Shown: positions 4,232-12,088 of the stretch, piece by piece
Layout of the letters: each line of letters starts with the position of its first letter
How positions within the stretch are numbered: position 1 is the stretch's first letter
IMG/VR virus record: IMGVR_UViG_3300031576_000238
Location: 1 to 28,846 of that record
DNA from: a virus
DNA: 28,846 nucleotides
Reading direction: 5' to 3' (one strand)
The notes under the pieces: model-generated
Database searches by the model: none
What the model was told of the DNA's origin: nothing
What the model saw: the letters and a program-made list of their open reading frames with translations, nothing else
Translations under genes and position numbers: made by a program

Positions 4232-4522
4232 ATGCAGAAATACAAAAACGTCTCTAACGATACATTGCATTTAGATAGCATGACACACACTATTCATTTA
4301 AGTCCTGGGGAAACAATGACTCTTCCTGCTTCGCGGGATGTTAGATATTACTCTGGGTTGAAAAAATTAATAGTAGTTAGAGACAATAAACATGAGGGTA
4401 AACCTCGTGAATTACCGAGGTTTTCAAAACCAAAAGTAATAAGTAAAAAGCCTAAGTCTTTTAAGAAATTAGAAGACAAGGTTGATATTAACAATGAAAA
4501 TAATGAAATGGAGAACAAATAA
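4232..4522 (+). CDS. Small protein with basic tail, upstream of sheath
   Basis: A 96-aa protein. Residues 1-48 look like a compact beta domain (YKNVSNDTLHLDS, then LSPGETMTLPASRDVRYYSG), and residues 50-96 are a Lys-rich, probably disordered tail. GGAGGAG lies just before ATG 4232, and the stop overlaps the sheath start by one base. Small proteins of this kind often sit between neck and sheath genes in myophages, but I do not recognise a named family. No membrane segment or enzyme motif is seen. Confidence 0.7.
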   Translation: MQKYKNVSNDTLHLDSMTHTIHLSPGETMTLPASRDVRYYSGLKKLIVVRDNKHEGKPRELPRFSKPKVISKKPKSFKKLEDKVDINNENNEMENK

Positions 4523-7113
4523 TGGCGGCTGATTTGCTTAATACAAATATTGGCCCAGAACGCATTGAAGTTATCTCCCAACCAACAGGAGTTATACCGA
4601 TTCCTGGGGTTTCTACAGCGAATACAGCGTTTATTCTACGCAGTTCGTTGGCAGACGCACCAGTGGATTTCCCTGTTGAAGTTCTTAACCTCGACTCTTT
4701 TGTAGAGCAGTTCGGGGATGAGGATGAATTGGGGTTGGCTTACTTTGCGCTTCAAGGCTTTTACGCCAATGCTGGATCGGGTAATAAAGCCATTATCGTA
4801 AATATAGCTCCAACTGCGTCTGGTTCACAAGTTGATGAAAGAGGCGTGGCAGAAGTCGGGGCCGGTGGGTTTATTGAGGATGAGAACGAGATCGTAACAG
4901 GTCTTGCCGTCTCAGGCTATACCCCAGCGACTGGCTTACTGTCCTTCTCAGGATTACCAAACTTGTCACTAGTTGAAGTCGGTGACTTTTTCAAAGACGA
5001 TAATGGAAGATTATTCCTAATCTCTGCGGTAGATGATGCTGCAGATACACTAACGATTCCAGCAAATTTGAATGCTGGCAGTCCAATTTACTCAGCAGGA
5101 GGCTTAAATACAGCTTCTGTTGCTGGTAAAGTCCTACGCTTGTTTGATGCTGATGAGCACAACTCAAAAGCACTTATTCAAGAAGGTGCCCTTAAAGGGG
5201 CAGTGATTGTAACCGCAGTTTCAAACCGAGAAGTAACTGCTTCTGCTGGTGGTTTCCTAAATATGGGAGCCAGAGTAGGAGATTTACTCTTGGATTTTGC
5301 TTCTGCTCTTTTCTACATTACATCAGTAATTGATGATGACAAAGTAGAAGTTGATAGAGCTGGAGCTGCTTTGGGTGCGGCTAGTGTTAAAACTGGTGTA
5401 GTAAACATAATTCAAGACACAAAGAGAAGCTCAAGTAATAATGCTTCAGTATCCCCACAGAACAGCGTTCCGTTTGCGAGTTCTGGTGCAGGATTCGGAT
5501 TACTTCCAACATCAGTTGGACCATATCCGGCTGGCAGTTTAAACCAGCATTTTATGACCCTAAATGGAGAAGAGAAAGAAATTCTTTCTCAAATAATCGT
5601 TGCAAGTGGTACATTGAATGTTCTCTTCGGAACTTCGGTTAATACCTTAGTTTATACCTCCGCGACTGGACTTGTTCAGTTTGCTGGTTTAGAAAATCTT
5701 TCAACTGTTTCCCCTGGTGACGTATGGCGTGATGCAAGCAATAACGACTTCGTAATTGATGCCGTTAACGATGCAGGCGACAATATCACGATTGCAAAAG
5801 GACAAGTAGTAAATACGGCTGCTGGTTCTACAATTCGTGATGGGCAAGTGCGAATCAATTTACTTGATTCAGCATTTAACCCAGGAACTGCGAACATCCC
5901 AACCTTTTTTGAGCCAGCGAATGAATTAGATATTCCGGCTACATCAAGTGGTGCTGCTGATGATTACTTCATTGCAGATGCTATGGTCCAAGATTCGGAC
6001 TTTATTGGGACACAAGCTAATGGTAAAGGGCTTCATGCTCTTGACCGAGTTGACGATGTAAACTTAATCTGTATGCCCGAAGTAACAGGTAGAGCACTTC
6101 AAAATGCCCTAATTGATTATTGCGAAACAGGTAGGGATGATTGCTTTGCACTTATCGCTGTCCCTCGTAATATTACTAACGCGGTTGTAGATAGAGTCAA
6201 AGTCAATGTTACTATAAGTACCATTACTGTTGGAACTAGCTCCAGCACTGTACTCTTTTCAGGAAGTCCAAATCTTTCTGCAGTTGCAGTTGGTGACTTG
6301 TTAGATTTCAATGGTTCTAAGTACCTAATTCTTGATGTTGATGACCAAGACGACAAAGTAACAGTCGAATCAACTTCTATTAGCGGGTCGGGTTCAGCGG
6401 CTATCGTTGCACCAAGCGCCATTACGTATAAGGAGATTATAGTTAATAATCCTAGTAAACGTGCCGCATGGTATTTTAACTTCGTGAAAGTCCTTAGACC
6501 TTCCGATAGTTCTATCGTGGTTGTTGATCCTTGTGGCTATGCCGCAGGAGTGATGGCTCGAATTGATGCTAACACGGCGATTGGTGGAGTAAGTCATGCC
6601 CCAGCAGGTATCTCATTTGCTGGTCTAGCAGACACAGTAGGACTTGATTTGAAAGTATCAGAAAAAGAAGATGCTGGTCCATTAAGACTAAATAGGATTA
6701 ACCGAATTACAGAATTCCCTGGTGCCGGAAGATTTATCTTCGGTGGTTACACTGCAGACAGTGGAACCTCTCCTGCATTTACTGCAGAGGAACAGTTGAT
6801 TCAAGTAATCAGAGCTAATCTCTTTATTAAGGGATCTCTTGAAAGAGGCTTACGAAGCTTCATTTGGGAGAACTTCTCACCCGCGACCCAATTGCAGGTT
6901 AAAAATGCTATTGAGTCATTTTTGCGGAATAACTCATATCTCTTCCCCGCTGGTCTTCCAGAGAAGGAACAGTTTAGAGTAATTGCAGTGGATACCACAG
7001 CAGAAGCTCTAGCCAAGGGATTAATGAAGTTCCGTGTTCAAGTACGTACAAACGTTGGATTGAGATTCATAGAGATCGCTCTTGAGTTTCCAATTCCGCA
7101 GGCACAAGGATAA
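4522..7113 (+). CDS. Contractile tail sheath protein
   Basis: An 863-aa protein that would form the contractile outer sheath. The N-terminus has PGVSTANTAFILRSS and a strand/helix pattern typical of sheath subunits. The C-terminus carries the conserved sheath core: LNRINRITEFPGAGRFIFGG (723-742), RSFIWENFSPATQLQVKNAI (778-797) and a final strand pair ending FIEIALEFPIPQAQG, used for subunit interlocking. T4 gp18 is 659 aa and P2 gpFI 396 aa, so this sheath is large. The excess is largely four related insertions at about residues 136-184, 240-282, 381-428 and 573-619, each with a GD dipeptide and an aromatic/Ile-Val strand. Such insertions would be expected on the outer surface of the tail. 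The start overlaps the preceding stop by one base and the tube gene follows directly. Confidence 0.95.
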   Translation: MAADLLNTNIGPERIEVISQPTGVIPIPGVSTANTAFILRSSLADAPVDFPVEVLNLDSFVEQFGDEDELGLAYFALQGFYANAGSGNKAIIVNIAPTASGSQVDERGVAEVGAGGFIEDENEIVTGLAVSGYTPATGLLSFSGLPNLSLVEVGDFFKDDNGRLFLISAVDDAADTLTIPANLNAGSPIYSAGGLNTASVAGKVLRLFDADEHNSKALIQEGALKGAVIVTAVSNREVTASAGGFLNMGARVGDLLLDFASALFYITSVIDDDKVEVDRAGAALGAASVKTGVVNIIQDTKRSSSNNASVSPQNSVPFASSGAGFGLLPTSVGPYPAGSLNQHFMTLNGEEKEILSQIIVASGTLNVLFGTSVNTLVYTSATGLVQFAGLENLSTVSPGDVWRDASNNDFVIDAVNDAGDNITIAKGQVVNTAAGSTIRDGQVRINLLDSAFNPGTANIPTFFEPANELDIPATSSGAADDYFIADAMVQDSDFIGTQANGKGLHALDRVDDVNLICMPEVTGRALQNALIDYCETGRDDCFALIAVPRNITNAVVDRVKVNVTISTITVGTSSSTVLFSGSPNLSAVAVGDLLDFNGSKYLILDVDDQDDKVTVESTSISGSGSAAIVAPSAITYKEIIVNNPSKRAAWYFNFVKVLRPSDSSIVVVDPCGYAAGVMARIDANTAIGGVSHAPAGISFAGLADTVGLDLKVSEKEDAGPLRLNRINRITEFPGAGRFIFGGYTADSGTSPAFTAEEQLIQVIRANLFIKGSLERGLRSFIWENFSPATQLQVKNAIESFLRNNSYLFPAGLPEKEQFRVIAVDTTAEALAKGLMKFRVQVRTNVGLRFIEIALEFPIPQAQG
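4927..6378 (+). repeat. Four diverged copies of a small GD domain inside the sheath gene
   Basis: Protein-level repeats encoded at about 4927-5073, 5239-5367, 5662-5805 and 6238-6378. Three copies begin with a phrase like LLSFSGLPNLS, LVQFAGLENLS or VLFSGSPNLS, then V..GD, a polar turn, a strand such as FLISAV, FVIDAV or YLILDV, an Asp-rich turn and a final strand (TLTI, NITI, KVTV). The second copy keeps only the GD-strand-turn part. At nucleotide level they are well diverged, so these are old domain duplications rather than recent repeats. Confidence 0.8.
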
Positions 7114-7124
7114 GGAGATAACCA

Positions 7125-7676
7125 ATGGCAAGAACAGGTAAAATAGACGCTATTGAAAAATTCCGATTCACTGTCGCCTTCACGGGACTGGGTAGAGCGG
7201 GCTTTAGCGAAGTATCAATTCCTAAGTATACTATTACTAAAGGCGAATACAGAGAGGGTAATGCCCCTGATAACGTTCAGCTCTTTCCAGGGCTAACGCG
7301 AACAGAAGACGTTGTTCTTTCTCGTGGTTCGACCACAAGTCAGGATCTTTATGAGTGGTTAAGATTGGTATTTGATCCTGAAAAGCTTCCCAATGGCTTA
7401 CCACAAGCTGGACAAGGCCAAAACCAAGTCCCACTTGGGAACACAGATGACTATCGTAAAGAAGTAACAGTTACGCTGTTTCGTCGAAACGGAGTCCCTG
7501 CAAAACAATGGGTTCTCAGAAACGCATTTCCAATCGCGTTTCAGCCTGGTTCAGACCTTAACGCAAACGAAGATGGAGAAAAGTCAATTGAACAAATCAC
7601 TTTGGCTTACGAAACCTTCGAGGAAATCTCAGGCGTTGAGATCTCTGCACCATTAGCTGGTGAGAATCAAGAGTAA
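7125..7676 (+). CDS. Major tail tube protein (gp19-like)
   Basis: A 183-aa protein of the T4 gp19-like tube family (also the Afp1/Pvc1 family). Signs are the opening DAIEKFRFTVAFTGLGRAGF, SEVSIPKYTITKGEYREGN, the PGLTR..DVVLSRG strand, and the late NEDGEKSIEQITLAYETFEE. It would stack as hexameric rings to form the rigid inner tube through which DNA passes. It directly follows the sheath, with AAGGAG upstream, and is followed by a strong hairpin. Seven of its ten Asn codons are AAC, against four of ten and one of six in its two downstream paralogues. This fits it being the abundant tube subunit. Confidence 0.92.
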   Translation: MARTGKIDAIEKFRFTVAFTGLGRAGFSEVSIPKYTITKGEYREGNAPDNVQLFPGLTRTEDVVLSRGSTTSQDLYEWLRLVFDPEKLPNGLPQAGQGQNQVPLGNTDDYRKEVTVTLFRRNGVPAKQWVLRNAFPIAFQPGSDLNANEDGEKSIEQITLAYETFEEISGVEISAPLAGENQE

Positions 7677-7733: not shown

Positions 7734-7880
7734 ATGCCATATAAGTCGGATGCACAAAGAAAGTTTTTTCATACAGCCAGTGCTAAAAAAGCTGGAATTA
7801 CTAAGAAACAAGTAAAAGAGTTTGATAAAGCTTCAAAAGGAAAGAAACTTCCTGCGAAGAAAAAAGCAAAAAAGAAGTAA
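7734..7880 (+). CDS. Small basic protein (MPxKSxAQRxFF type)
   Basis: A 48-aa protein with ATG at 7734, preceded by a good site (CGGAGGAAAAT). It starts MPYKSDAQRKFF, has a helical middle (GITKKQVKEFDKASKGKKLP) and ends in a run of Lys and Ala. Short proteins beginning MPxKSxAQRRFF and ending GKKLP plus Lys are common, uncharacterised phage and prophage proteins. Lys makes up more than a third of the residues, so nucleic-acid or membrane contact is plausible, but the function is unknown. It lies between two tube paralogues, just downstream of the hairpin. Confidence 0.8.
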   Translation: MPYKSDAQRKFFHTASAKKAGITKKQVKEFDKASKGKKLPAKKKAKKK

Positions 7881-7895: not shown

Positions 7896-8498
7896 ATGGC
7901 TAGAACCTCATCAGTTGATGCAATCGAGAAGTTTCGATTTAACGTCTTCATCCTAAATATATCATTGGACCCAGTGTCCCTTGTTACTAATTTTACGGGA
8001 TTTTTGAGGGGCGGATTCTCAGAGGTTACCTTACCGAGACAAACTACTGGAATCATTGAGTATCGTGAAAATGTAGATGCGGCTCACCCCAGTTTAATAC
8101 CAGGGCTAACTAGATATGATTCAGTTTCCCTAAAAAGAGGAGTTACGGGAAGCTCAGATTTTTTGAGATGGGCTAATAACGTACACGATCCAAACCAACT
8201 AATAGCCACGGCCATTCAACGAATGCGTGGAGATCCTAATGAATCCCCTCCATCAGAGAGTTTAAACTTTCGGAGGGATATTTTAATAGTCGCCTATGAT
8301 AGAGCAGGAAAACCTACTAAGGGGTGGTTACTCCGAGATTGTTGGGTCACTTCCTACAAACCTGGCGACGATATGTCAGCCACTGAAGATGGTGCCAAAT
8401 TAATTGAAGAAATAGAGCTACGTTATGAGTCTTTTGAAGAATTGACTCTTGAAGCTCTAGTCAGCGGCACCTTCAATAGTTTATTAGGAGCATTATAA
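7896..8498 (+). CDS. Tail tube paralogue 2 (gp19-like, possible tube initiator)
   Basis: A 200-aa protein clearly related to the main tube gene: both open MART..(I/V)DAIEKFRF and share GFSEV, EYRE, PGLTR and the late ATEDG..LIEEI.L.YESFEE block. It has an extra 10-15 residues near the N-terminus (LDPVSLVTNFTG) and a hydrophobic C-terminal tail (SGTFNSLLGAL). In contractile systems extra gp19-like proteins form the first rings between baseplate hub and tube (as Afp5 does, and T4 gp48/gp54 functionally). That role is likely here but inferred. The stop overlaps the next ATG by one base (ATAATG). Confidence 0.85.
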   Translation: MARTSSVDAIEKFRFNVFILNISLDPVSLVTNFTGFLRGGFSEVTLPRQTTGIIEYRENVDAAHPSLIPGLTRYDSVSLKRGVTGSSDFLRWANNVHDPNQLIATAIQRMRGDPNESPPSESLNFRRDILIVAYDRAGKPTKGWLLRDCWVTSYKPGDDMSATEDGAKLIEEIELRYESFEELTLEALVSGTFNSLLGAL

Positions 8499-9052
8499 TG
8501 TCAAGAAGTAGTGGTTTTGATCCATTGGATAGGTTCCGATGGAAGGTATATGTATTTTCACCTGCTGGAGCACTTTGGGCTAGAGCTGGATTCACCAGTT
8601 GTACTACGCCTGATGTTACAGTTAATTTTAAGACTTATCAAGAAGGTGGAAGGCATATGATGCCACGAAAGATACATGATAGTGCTGGTTTTTCGCCTAT
8701 AACCCTTGCAAGAGGAGTTATTGCTAGGCAGGGATCTGATGATTTTGCTAAGTGGATGAATGACCTATTTAAGGTAACTCACCAAGAGCCAGGGGCAGCA
8801 GATGCTCCAAATTATAGGAATGATATTGTAATTGAGCACTTGGATAGAGATTCTACTGTAGTAAAACGATATGTACTGTTTAACTGTGTTCCATCTCATT
8901 ATAAACCAGCTTCCGATTTCAGTGCTTTAGATGAGGCTGAAATTAGCGTTGAGACACTTTCCTTTGAGTACGAAGGTTTCAAAGAAGAAAGAGTAAATAG
9001 TCTCGAAGATGTTGGTGATTACGTTAGAAGATTTACTAGAGGTATCTTTTAA
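8498..9052 (+). CDS. Tail tube paralogue 3 (gp19-like, possible hub-tube adaptor)
   Basis: A 184-aa protein with the same fold signature: FDPLDRFRWKVYVF at the start, FTSCTTPDVTVNFKTYQEGG, SPITLARGV, and ISVETLSFEYEGFKEE near the end. It is the most diverged of the three tube homologues and has the lowest AAC use for Asn (one of six), which suits a low-copy protein. It is coupled to paralogue 2 by a one-base overlap and lies directly before the assembly chaperone. It most likely makes one of the tube-initiating rings contacting the gp27-like hub. The order of the two adaptor rings cannot be told from sequence. Confidence 0.82.
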   Translation: MSRSSGFDPLDRFRWKVYVFSPAGALWARAGFTSCTTPDVTVNFKTYQEGGRHMMPRKIHDSAGFSPITLARGVIARQGSDDFAKWMNDLFKVTHQEPGAADAPNYRNDIVIEHLDRDSTVVKRYVLFNCVPSHYKPASDFSALDEAEISVETLSFEYEGFKEERVNSLEDVGDYVRRFTRGIF

Positions 9053-9079: not shown

Positions 9080-9820
9080 ATGCTTGTTGAATTACCTTGT
9101 GGTATTCTAAAAGACGGCGAAATATATGACCGTGTTTTAGTTAAAGAACTAACTGGCCGACAACAGAACTATCTCATTGATATGGAGTTAGTAGCTGACA
9201 GTCTTGGTCACGTTCCAAAACTCTTAGAGGAGTTAACAATAGATTATCAAACCAGGGAAGGAAAACCATTAGGTTTACCCTCCAGTGAGGCGATTTATCT
9301 GTTGCCATCAGAAGATGTAGAATGCTTATTGCTCAAAATTCGAGAAGTAACTTATGGGGCTGCCTATGCTATACCAGTACGGTGCCCACATTGCACTAAA
9401 CAGCAAATGAAGCAAGTTAAGCTCGATGCAATTGAGATGACTAAATTACCGGACAAAACAGTACGAACAAAAGTTATAAAACTGCCAAGAACCGCAATGG
9501 ATGCAGAAATCAAACTTCTGTACCTAAAGGACTTATTTAACCTATATAAAGCATTAAAGGATAATCCTAAGAAGCTTTATACAGGTACTTTATATTTGTC
9601 CTTGAAACGATTAGGCGACAAAGAACAGGTTAAAGAGGAAGATCTTTTAGATCTTCCTGTAGCCGACCTAGCAGCTATTGAAGACGCCTTCTCAGAGTTG
9701 AGGGGATCAGTTGACACCTTGCTAACGCATGAGTGTGATGATTGCGAAAAGGAGTTTGATACTCCACTGCCCGTGATGGACCCAAGTTTTTTCGTCCAGT
9801 CGCGGACCCCTTTAACATAA
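9080..9820 (+). CDS. Tail assembly chaperone / T4 gp26-like, zinc-ribbon (unshifted product)
   Basis: A 246-aa protein. The N-terminal part (1-97) has the form of T4-gp26/tail-chaperone relatives: MLVELPCGILKDG, then KELTGRQQNYL. Two Cys pairs, CPHC at 102-105 and CDDC at 219-222, would bind one zinc if folded together. The intervening region (about 140-210) is helical. It sits between the tube genes and the tape measure, where tail assembly chaperones are encoded in lambda, P2 and Mu-type phages. GGAGG precedes ATG 9080. Near its end the reading frame crosses a T TTT TTC slippery heptamer, after which only eight more residues are read in this frame. Confidence 0.8.
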   Translation: MLVELPCGILKDGEIYDRVLVKELTGRQQNYLIDMELVADSLGHVPKLLEELTIDYQTREGKPLGLPSSEAIYLLPSEDVECLLLKIREVTYGAAYAIPVRCPHCTKQQMKQVKLDAIEMTKLPDKTVRTKVIKLPRTAMDAEIKLLYLKDLFNLYKALKDNPKKLYTGTLYLSLKRLGDKEQVKEEDLLDLPVADLAAIEDAFSELRGSVDTLLTHECDDCEKEFDTPLPVMDPSFFVQSRTPLT

Positions 9821-9999
9821 TTCCAACAGAGTACATCAGCCACAAAACTGATCTTTTGAACGATTACGCCTATCTGGGACAAGCTTTCAGATGGGGTCCA
9901 GATCAGATTGATTACTTAGGTTGGACTTACCGTAAACAACTCGTAGAAGACCACAGACAAGCTATGAAAGAGGTCGAGAGACGTGCCAAGTCCAAATAA
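9080..9999 (+). CDS. Frameshifted tail assembly chaperone (-1 product)
   Basis: If the ribosome slips -1 on TTTTTTC (9787-9793), the first 238 residues of the preceding gene continue into an otherwise start-less open frame to TAA 9997-9999, giving a 306-residue product. The 68-residue extension begins RPVADPFNIIPTEYISHKTD and is rich in aromatic and charged residues, with YLGQAFRWGPDQIDYLGW in its middle; it looks like real protein. The frame has no ATG until 9964, so independent translation is unlikely. The tape measure GTG lies inside the last codons. This matches the lambda gpG/gpGT arrangement (known) where the long form links chaperone to tape measure. Slippage itself is inferred. Confidence 0.78.
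9787..9793 (+). promoter_or_regulatory. -1 ribosomal frameshift slippery heptamer
   Basis: T TTT TTC in the phase of the chaperone gene (codons TTT 9788-9790, TTC 9791-9793) fits the X XXY YYZ rule for simultaneous -1 slippage. After slipping, the next codon is CGT 9793-9795 in the open frame that ends just inside the tape measure. A small hairpin, GTCC 9794-9797 with GGAC 9804-9807, follows at once, but it is short and closer than typical stimulators. AAAAGGAG at 9747-9754 is further upstream than a classical Shine-Dalgarno stimulator. Confidence 0.78.
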
Positions 10000-12088
10000 C
10001 ATTAATATTCTAATTAGTGTTCGTAATAAGGCTTCCGCGCCCATACGTGAAGCACGAAAAGATATTCGTGACTTCAGGGACGAACTAGTAAAGTTCAACA
10101 GACGCCTGTTTACAGCAAGTGCAGTTTACGCAACCTTCTCACAAGGGTTTCGACGAGCCTTTAATTTAGCTGGAGTGGGTGCCGAGTTCGATTATCTTAG
10201 AACTCAATTCAATAATACTTTCGGTAGTTCCTACCTAAAGACTTTCCGCGAAGCGGCTAGGAATACTATAGACGCTACATCCCTTATGCAGATCGCTCTG
10301 CAAAATCACGCCAGAGGGATGAAAAAATACGAAACTCAAAAGATATTCAGTTTGTCAGTTGGAGCTGCTAAGTTAATGGGCACATCGACGGCAGATGCTG
10401 CAAAGAAGATGTCTAAGGCTTTCAACGACCTTTCTGTTACTGGCCTTCAGAATTTCTTCGTTGCTCTTAACGCTAATAACCAGTTTAAAAATATGAACTT
10501 GATTATTCGGCGCTTAACTCACGGCTTTAACGCTGCAAAAATGTCAGCTGAAAACTTCCGAAAGATTGGTATGGAGCATCTAACTAAAGCTCTAGAACAG
10601 TTTATTGGTGGAACAGAAGACACACTTACCCTCTTTATGATGACTAAAGCAGGATTTGAAGACCTACGAAAAGTCAGTGGAGCTTTCATTTCTCGTGCTA
10701 TTAATCCACTTTTAAAGAGTGTTTCGATGCTTAGTTTTAAGGCTTTTGACAGATTAAATTCAGCGTTGGATGATAGTGAAAGTAAATTTGGTAGATTACG
10801 ACTTGGACTAGTTGACTTCCTACAAGTTGGTGGTGGAGTCTTGGCTGGATCAACTGCGCTAGTGGGAGGATTATCTCTCTTAGCTCTAGTATCTTCTACT
10901 CTAGGGGTTACATTTGGTGCATTAACTGGTCTAATAACCTTATTCACTATTGGCTTAAAAACTGCCAAAGGTGAAGGTAGATCATGGCTTGAATTCATTG
11001 CAGACGTAGGAACTGAATTAAAGTTTTATTATCAAGCATTCTCTTCATATTCAGATGGTGTTTCCACCTTTTCTAAAGATGTCACTGATAGACTCTCACA
11101 GATGCCAGAAGCAACTCAGAACAGAATTATGTTCATTGCAAAAGCATTTGTTCTAGCGAGAGTAGCTCTTGATGGTTTTACACAAGGCGTAGCAGAAACT
11201 GTTGATCGAATCACAGCGGTTCTATCAAAATTTGGTTTATGGGACGAGAAAACTAAACAATTTACACAGCGAACTGAAAACTTGGTAAAAACACTAGGTA
11301 AGGTTGCTGGTGCTCTAGCTGTCATGTGGGGCATAAAATCAGGTATTGGTGCTCTAAAGAATATACTTGGTGGAGTTCCTATAGTTGGTCGTCTATTTGG
11401 AGGCGGCAAAGGGGGCAAAGGTCCTAGTGGTACGCAAGGTGATCCTATCTATACTAAAGATGCAAGCATCCTTGGTGGAGTAGGCAAAGTTGGCGGTATA
11501 TTAGCTTCTGGTGGTATTATAAGCAAGATTTTAACTACTTTAGGCAATACAACACTAGGATATAAACTATTTGGTTGGGGAGTCAATGTAGTAGCATTTG
11601 TTACACCTTTACTAACTATGGTAGGTGGTTGGTTAATGGTTGCTCTTAATGGAGTAATTATTCCAGCGATTATCGGGGCTGCTATTGGCACACTTGCTGA
11701 TTATGCATTTAATATCTTTGGAAAAGGAAACTTTTCAGATTACTTAGCTAATTCTTGGTTTGAAGCCCTTCACCCAAAAGAAGCTGCAGAAGCCAAAGGA
11801 AAAACATTTACCCCTGATGCAATGATGGGGGGTGGACAATTACGTAATGAATTGTCAGCTTTAACCCCAGTTGATGAAGAAGCACGTAATAGACAAAAAG
11901 AGATGTATACTCAAGTAAGTGCTCTAAAAGCTTCAGGCGGGGAAATAGACGAAAATTTTGTTAGAGAGATTACAAGAGGCGGGAATTTGACTGGAGCAGA
12001 AACTAATAAGTTGTTAGAGAAAATTGCTAAGATTCTTGCACAGAAAAGAAGTGCATCTAATAAAATGAATGCTCAGGATACGGAGTAA
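9983..12088 (+). CDS. Tape measure protein
   Basis: A 701-aa protein from GTG 9983, with AAAGAGGT about 9 bases upstream. The start lies inside the end of the frameshifted chaperone reading. Residues 1-270 are helical and charged (NILISVRNKASAPIREARKD; later AAKLMGTSTADAAKKMSKAF). Hydrophobic helices lie at about 282-326 and 533-572, and a Gly-rich stretch at about 453-512. This is the usual make-up of a tape measure: it sets tail length inside the tube and can enter the host membrane on infection. At the commonly used 1.5 angstrom per residue the tail would be about 100 nm, short to medium. No lysozyme or peptidase motif was recognised in it. Confidence 0.88.
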   Translation: MPSPNNINILISVRNKASAPIREARKDIRDFRDELVKFNRRLFTASAVYATFSQGFRRAFNLAGVGAEFDYLRTQFNNTFGSSYLKTFREAARNTIDATSLMQIALQNHARGMKKYETQKIFSLSVGAAKLMGTSTADAAKKMSKAFNDLSVTGLQNFFVALNANNQFKNMNLIIRRLTHGFNAAKMSAENFRKIGMEHLTKALEQFIGGTEDTLTLFMMTKAGFEDLRKVSGAFISRAINPLLKSVSMLSFKAFDRLNSALDDSESKFGRLRLGLVDFLQVGGGVLAGSTALVGGLSLLALVSSTLGVTFGALTGLITLFTIGLKTAKGEGRSWLEFIADVGTELKFYYQAFSSYSDGVSTFSKDVTDRLSQMPEATQNRIMFIAKAFVLARVALDGFTQGVAETVDRITAVLSKFGLWDEKTKQFTQRTENLVKTLGKVAGALAVMWGIKSGIGALKNILGGVPIVGRLFGGGKGGKGPSGTQGDPIYTKDASILGGVGKVGGILASGGIISKILTTLGNTTLGYKLFGWGVNVVAFVTPLLTMVGGWLMVALNGVIIPAIIGAAIGTLADYAFNIFGKGNFSDYLANSWFEALHPKEAAEAKGKTFTPDAMMGGGQLRNELSALTPVDEEARNRQKEMYTQVSALKASGGEIDENFVREITRGGNLTGAETNKLLEKIAKILAQKRSASNKMNAQDTE

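Follow-up and report, generated by a model that had tools for sequence, protein, structure and literature searches.

Does the tail assembly chaperone gene of an uncultivated myophage (IMG/VR record IMGVR_UViG_3300031576_000238) yield one protein, or does a change of reading frame near its end yield a second, longer one? An earlier note on the 28,846-nucleotide stretch of DNA analysed here, which we call the window, had proposed a programmed -1 frameshift that joins the chaperone to a hidden extension, following the logic of lambda G/GT in a myophage. Long-tailed phages in general make such a chaperone pair by frameshifting, P2-like myophages among them, and T4 is named as the exception (PMC5009743, a review from 2016). 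According to Vladimirov et al. 2022, as cited in PMC10274946, some T4-like phages instead pair a short chaperone gene with a long, fused one, and PMC12846349 cites the same work on the poly-T slippage sites of T4-like phages. A -1 site has also been described in the chaperone gene of Vandenendeviridae (PMC12846349). The comparative analysis below supports the proposed chaperone pair, but P2, the Vandenendeviridae and the T4-like phages with poly-T sites already provide examples of a frameshifting chaperone among myophages. The features under discussion are collected in Table 1.

Table 1. Coordinates of the features in the window, and of the T4 paralogs for comparison
Feature	Position	Strand	Basis
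gp19-like tail tube gene, just upstream of the chaperone gene	8498..9052	+	PF06841, E 2e-20
Short form, tail assembly chaperone (gp26-type)	9080..9820	+	PF12322, phrog_150, relatives
Slippery heptamer T TTT TTC, in phase with the chaperone frame	9787..9793	+	sequence; identical in all six lineages
-1 frame extension, 68 residues and stop TAA	9793..9999	+	open frame, relatives, synonymous bias, model
End of the short form in the 0 frame, VQSRTPLT and stop; overlaps the extension	9794..9820	+	change pattern
Next ORF, probable tape measure, 701 aa, GTG start	9983..12088	+	place, length, synteny in relatives
T4 gp26 and gp51, paralogs of one Pfam family	L027 3803-5229		

The chaperone gene and its neighbours

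ORF 9080-9820 reads directly from an ATG through 246 codons to a TAA at 9818-9820. Its product matches PF12322 (Pfam T4_baseplate, the family of T4 gp26 and gp51) with an E-value of 5.1e-10, and also PHROG 150 (phrog_150), labelled 'baseplate hub', which bears out the earlier suggestion of a resemblance to the T4 gp26 family. The PF12322 score is 39.8 bits for the window and 55.1 for one of its relatives (L014), both above the Pfam gathering score of 24.5. The two CxxC pairs that had been claimed are present, at C102/C105 and C219/C222, and the protein is conserved in five related loci (L001, L006, L009, L014 and L120). Its structure model, with a mean pLDDT of 55, was of too low quality for a fold search. 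Judged by these matches, the gene is a gp26-type tail assembly chaperone gene of a contractile-tailed phage.

The chaperone gene follows a sheath gene and three gp19-like tube genes. The latter lie in a row (7125-7676, 7896-8498 and 8498-9052), an arrangement that resembles the triplicated tube locus of Vandenendeviridae (PMC12846349). Between the first two, a lysine-rich ORF of 48 residues, preceded by a good ribosome binding site, occupies positions 7734-7880, and the gap that matches this region in L009 and L014 measures about 700-870 nt. Sheath profiles match the 863-residue product of the sheath gene (4522-7113) mainly near its C-terminal end, so the protein carries a large extra region.

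On its other side, the chaperone gene is followed by a long ORF that overlaps the extension by 17 nt. No profile matched this ORF, so its assignment as a tape measure gene rests on position and length; together with synteny in relatives, these make a tape measure protein its probable product. The earlier claim that the extension ends inside the tape measure start is accordingly right about the position, as the extension, with its TAA, covers the first 17 nt of the ORF beginning with GTG at 9983, while the name of that ORF follows from place and length.

The heptamer and the extension in relatives

At the heptamer, the 0-frame codons are AGT TTT TTC GTC, which corresponds to the X XXY YYZ pattern in phase, and 24 nt separate its end from the 0-frame stop codon; here every coordinate of the earlier note was correct. 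By itself, such a heptamer is not significant, because X XXY YYZ heptamers occur in phase 39 times across the 25 ORFs of the window, although this is the only in-phase TTTTTTC among them. We found neither a conserved stimulatory RNA structure nor a Shine-Dalgarno-like stimulator near the slip site. A GGAGT...ACTCC hairpin upstream of it is present in the window and in the relative L001, but L006 lacks it.

Just as had been claimed, no stop interrupts the -1 frame between 9760 and the TAA at 9997-9999, and its first ATG comes at 9964 (extension codon 58). A TTG at extension codon 22 is not conserved. After the slip this frame (RPVADPF...RAKSK) reads in full RPVADPFNIIPTEYISHKTDLLNDYAYLGQAFRWGPDQIDYLGWTYRKQLVEDHRQAMKEVERRAKSK, and the fused product, join(9080..9793,9793..9999), has 306 residues. 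An AlphaFold model of the extension (mean pLDDT 74) has a loose linker followed by a helical hairpin, with helices at residues 12-32, 36-40 and 44-67. Profile searches with the extension gave no significant match, a Foldseek search with the model returned nothing below E 0.3, and tblastn against known phages found nothing significant. In profile comparisons, the extension did not match the T4-type set, and with the Streptomyces phage set it reached only E 0.002. We also considered DUF6760 (PF20546), a domain of contractile injection systems, as a candidate for the extension, and rejected it when its profile was not matched.

The five distinct IMG/VR lineages related to the window, whose chaperones are 38-81% identical to that of the window, all have T TTT TTC in phase and a -1 extension. 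Chaperone and extension identities are 81% and 90% for L001, 64% and 71% for L006, 46% and 60% for L009/L010, and 43% and 54% for L013/L014, in each case with the extension aligned over 68 residues, and the fused length in these four lineages is exactly 238+68 residues. Since L009 and L013 were retrieved through the extension, which biases the sample, we also searched with the neighbouring tube gene. This search yielded L120 (tube 33% and chaperone 38% identical, extension 48% over 48 residues), the sole locus fetched independently of the junction and thus a small sample. Scans of genome contigs for further relatives found none.

T TTT TTC is thus present at the junction in 6/6 lineages including the window, and among the other Phe-Phe pairs of the five loci counted it is used in 0/25. 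Such conservation across lineages takes the motif, as judged from the alignment, far beyond chance. The earlier note had called for an alignment of related phages, and in the alignment the heptamer and the -1 frame are both conserved in the window and all five lineages; no relative has lost the heptamer while keeping the frames.

Reading-frame selection and the choice between explanations

We compared the patterns of nucleotide change on the two sides of the heptamer. Between the window and L001, the part of the extension beyond the 0-frame stop has a pS of 0.62 and a pN of 0.05 in the -1 frame, and the other two frames lack such a pattern. For this pair, the dN/dS of the -1 frame is about 0.04, which, with the absence of stops, answers the earlier concern that this frame might be interrupted or evolve neutrally. 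Taken over five lineages, the ratio of amino-acid changes to base changes is 0.39 in the 0 frame versus 0.67 in the -1 frame before the heptamer, 0.70 versus 0.28 in the overlap just after it, and 0.62 versus 0.37 beyond the 0-frame stop. Most base changes within the 24-nt overlap are synonymous when read in the -1 frame, yet they change the protein read in the 0 frame. These ratios indicate that the coding frame changes at the heptamer, and on these comparisons we regard a conserved frame change at this point as solid.

A run of six T is a site prone to indel errors, and the two pieces could in principle be one ORF broken by a sequencing or assembly error or by decay of the gene. However, the same arrangement recurs in divergent lineages from several metagenomes, and each half shows synonymous bias in its own frame. 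A broken ORF is already contradicted by these observations and is hardly credible.

Transcriptional slippage, in which RNA polymerase adds one U in the six-base run and the ribosome reads on normally, would give the same protein, and six T are found in every lineage. Yet a pure T-run would suffice for slippage, with no need for a fixed T TTT TTC phase and a final C, whereas this C is constant in the window family and in all 80 of the cyanophage-type loci described below. Moreover, by the standards of E. coli, six T make a short run for polymerase slippage. We therefore consider this explanation very improbable.

Alternatively, the extension could be a small gene in its own right, on which ribosomes start by re-initiation or coupling once they have terminated at the chaperone stop; the small gp51-like ORFs of KVP40 and cyanophages have been annotated in this way. 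In the window, the open -1 frame does continue after termination at 9820, and in 78/80 of the cyanophage-type loci an ATG follows soon after the heptamer, so that both routes are open there. However, if the -1 frame of the window family is followed from the stop upstream of the heptamer, no conserved ATG, GTG or TTG is met before extension codon 19 at the earliest, and this lack of a start counts against a gene of its own. The -1 frame of L006 stays open further upstream, back to 57 nt before the heptamer, and includes two start-like codons there (ATG at -45, GTG at -54). The RPVADPF segment, which comes right after the heptamer, is under selection upstream of any start. A separate gene is thus very improbable for the window.

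The frame switch, combined with the lack of a conserved start for the extension, points to a fusion of 306 residues beside the 246-residue form. A programmed -1 frameshift at T TTT TTC is very probably the means by which both are made, and the comparative tests (heptamer kept, no stops, synonymous bias) all favour it. Under this mechanism, most ribosomes would make the short form, and a minority would slip back one base at the heptamer; a slip on the ribosome is what we infer from the comparisons. In the simplest account, two Phe-tRNAs would re-pair in tandem, from TTT TTC to TTT TTT, and the slipped ribosomes would read CGT CCA GTC and onwards to the TAA ending at 9999. By analogy with lambda, many short and few long chaperones may then bind the tape measure protein encoded by the next gene, and the extension may recruit tail tube subunits. 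In lambda, gpG and gpGT bind the tape measure protein and the T part recruits the tube subunit (PMC5009743). By the same analogy, the product of the gp19-like tube gene just upstream of the chaperone gene is a possible partner of the extension.

Relation to known chaperone pairs and the PF12322 family

The slippery heptamers of lambda and P2 are G GGA AAG and T TTT TTG, respectively, whereas that of the window is T TTT TTC, in a pair predicted from sequence. As in lambda gpG/gpGT and P2 E/E+E', a short chaperone would be accompanied by a minor -1 product; the gene lies just before the tape measure gene in those phages (PMC5009743) and just before the probable one in the window. Unlike the chaperones of these phages, that of the window belongs to the T4 gp26 family and carries two CxxC pairs. 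Compared by description, phage Adele and its group (Vandenendeviridae/Andersonviridae) are also myophages with a poly-T site, in their case an invariant GTTTTT, and they too have three tail tube genes and an open -1 frame that extends in the direction of the tape measure gene (PMC12846349).

Parallels also exist within PF12322. T TTT TTC stands in phase at the end of gp26 in KVP40, cyanophage Bellamy and Agrobacterium phage Atu_ph07, where the -1 frame continues into a stretch annotated as gp51 or hypothetical. These phages and the cyanophages thus share with the window the family, the heptamer, its place and a -1 extension, but, unlike the KVP40/cyanophage type, the window has no ATG following closely on the heptamer. 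In the cyanophage-type gp26 genes (L028-L107), which are interrelated and do not count as independent events, the terminal Phe-Phe pair is encoded by T TTT TTC in 80/80, compared with 2/224 of the other Phe-Phe pairs. The flanking bases vary around this constant heptamer, which is followed by one codon and a stop, and the -1 extension has about 60 residues.

T4, unlike the window, has two paralogous genes. Its gp26 (208 residues) and gp51 (249 residues) both match PF12322, with E-values of 9e-64 and 4e-52, and match each other (blastp E 2e-6); both are listed as hub assembly chaperones (PMC3004832). T4 gp51 consists of the chaperone and an extra C-terminal piece, which is homologous to the small ORFs of KVP40 and Bellamy (phrog_634). 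The window extension, alone or fused, did not match phrog_634, and homology to the gp51 C-terminus is not detectable.

In a further group of loci (L003, L004, L015-L020, L022 and L023), an open extension in the +1 frame starts from the same Phe position, often at TTT C. These belong to Streptomyces BRock-group phages, a huge phage, Streptococcus GXN1, SP-15, LIS04, Mel-JY01 and Flavobacterium immuto, and existing annotations either show parts of their extensions as small ORFs of their own or leave these parts empty. Other phages with gp26-family chaperones thus seem, from their reading frames, to use a putative +1-type shift at this position.

We give an even chance to the reading that recoding throughout PF12322 goes back to a single ancestral site, a conserved Phe or Phe-Phe where the chaperone ends, with a -1 branch (the window family, cyanophages, KVP40 and Atu_ph07), a +1 (or -2) branch, and the T4 paralog branch. 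Part of this reading has already been published by Vladimirov et al. 2022, as far as the papers citing that work convey. For the same reason we dropped the notion that a gp26/gp51 chaperone pair is a new idea, as Vladimirov et al. 2022 is cited in PMC10274946 and PMC12846349. The window instead provides a clear new case of a known kind of frameshift, in the gp26-type chaperone family.

The gp26-type chaperones from uncultivated myophages thereby gain one well-supported frameshift gene, a kind of gene that standard gene callers miss. The case also supports the view that T4 gp26 and gp51 serve as a short and a long tail assembly chaperone and are not parts of the hub, and the relatives in which a single gene carries the heptamer suggest how the T4 exception to the G/GT rule arose.
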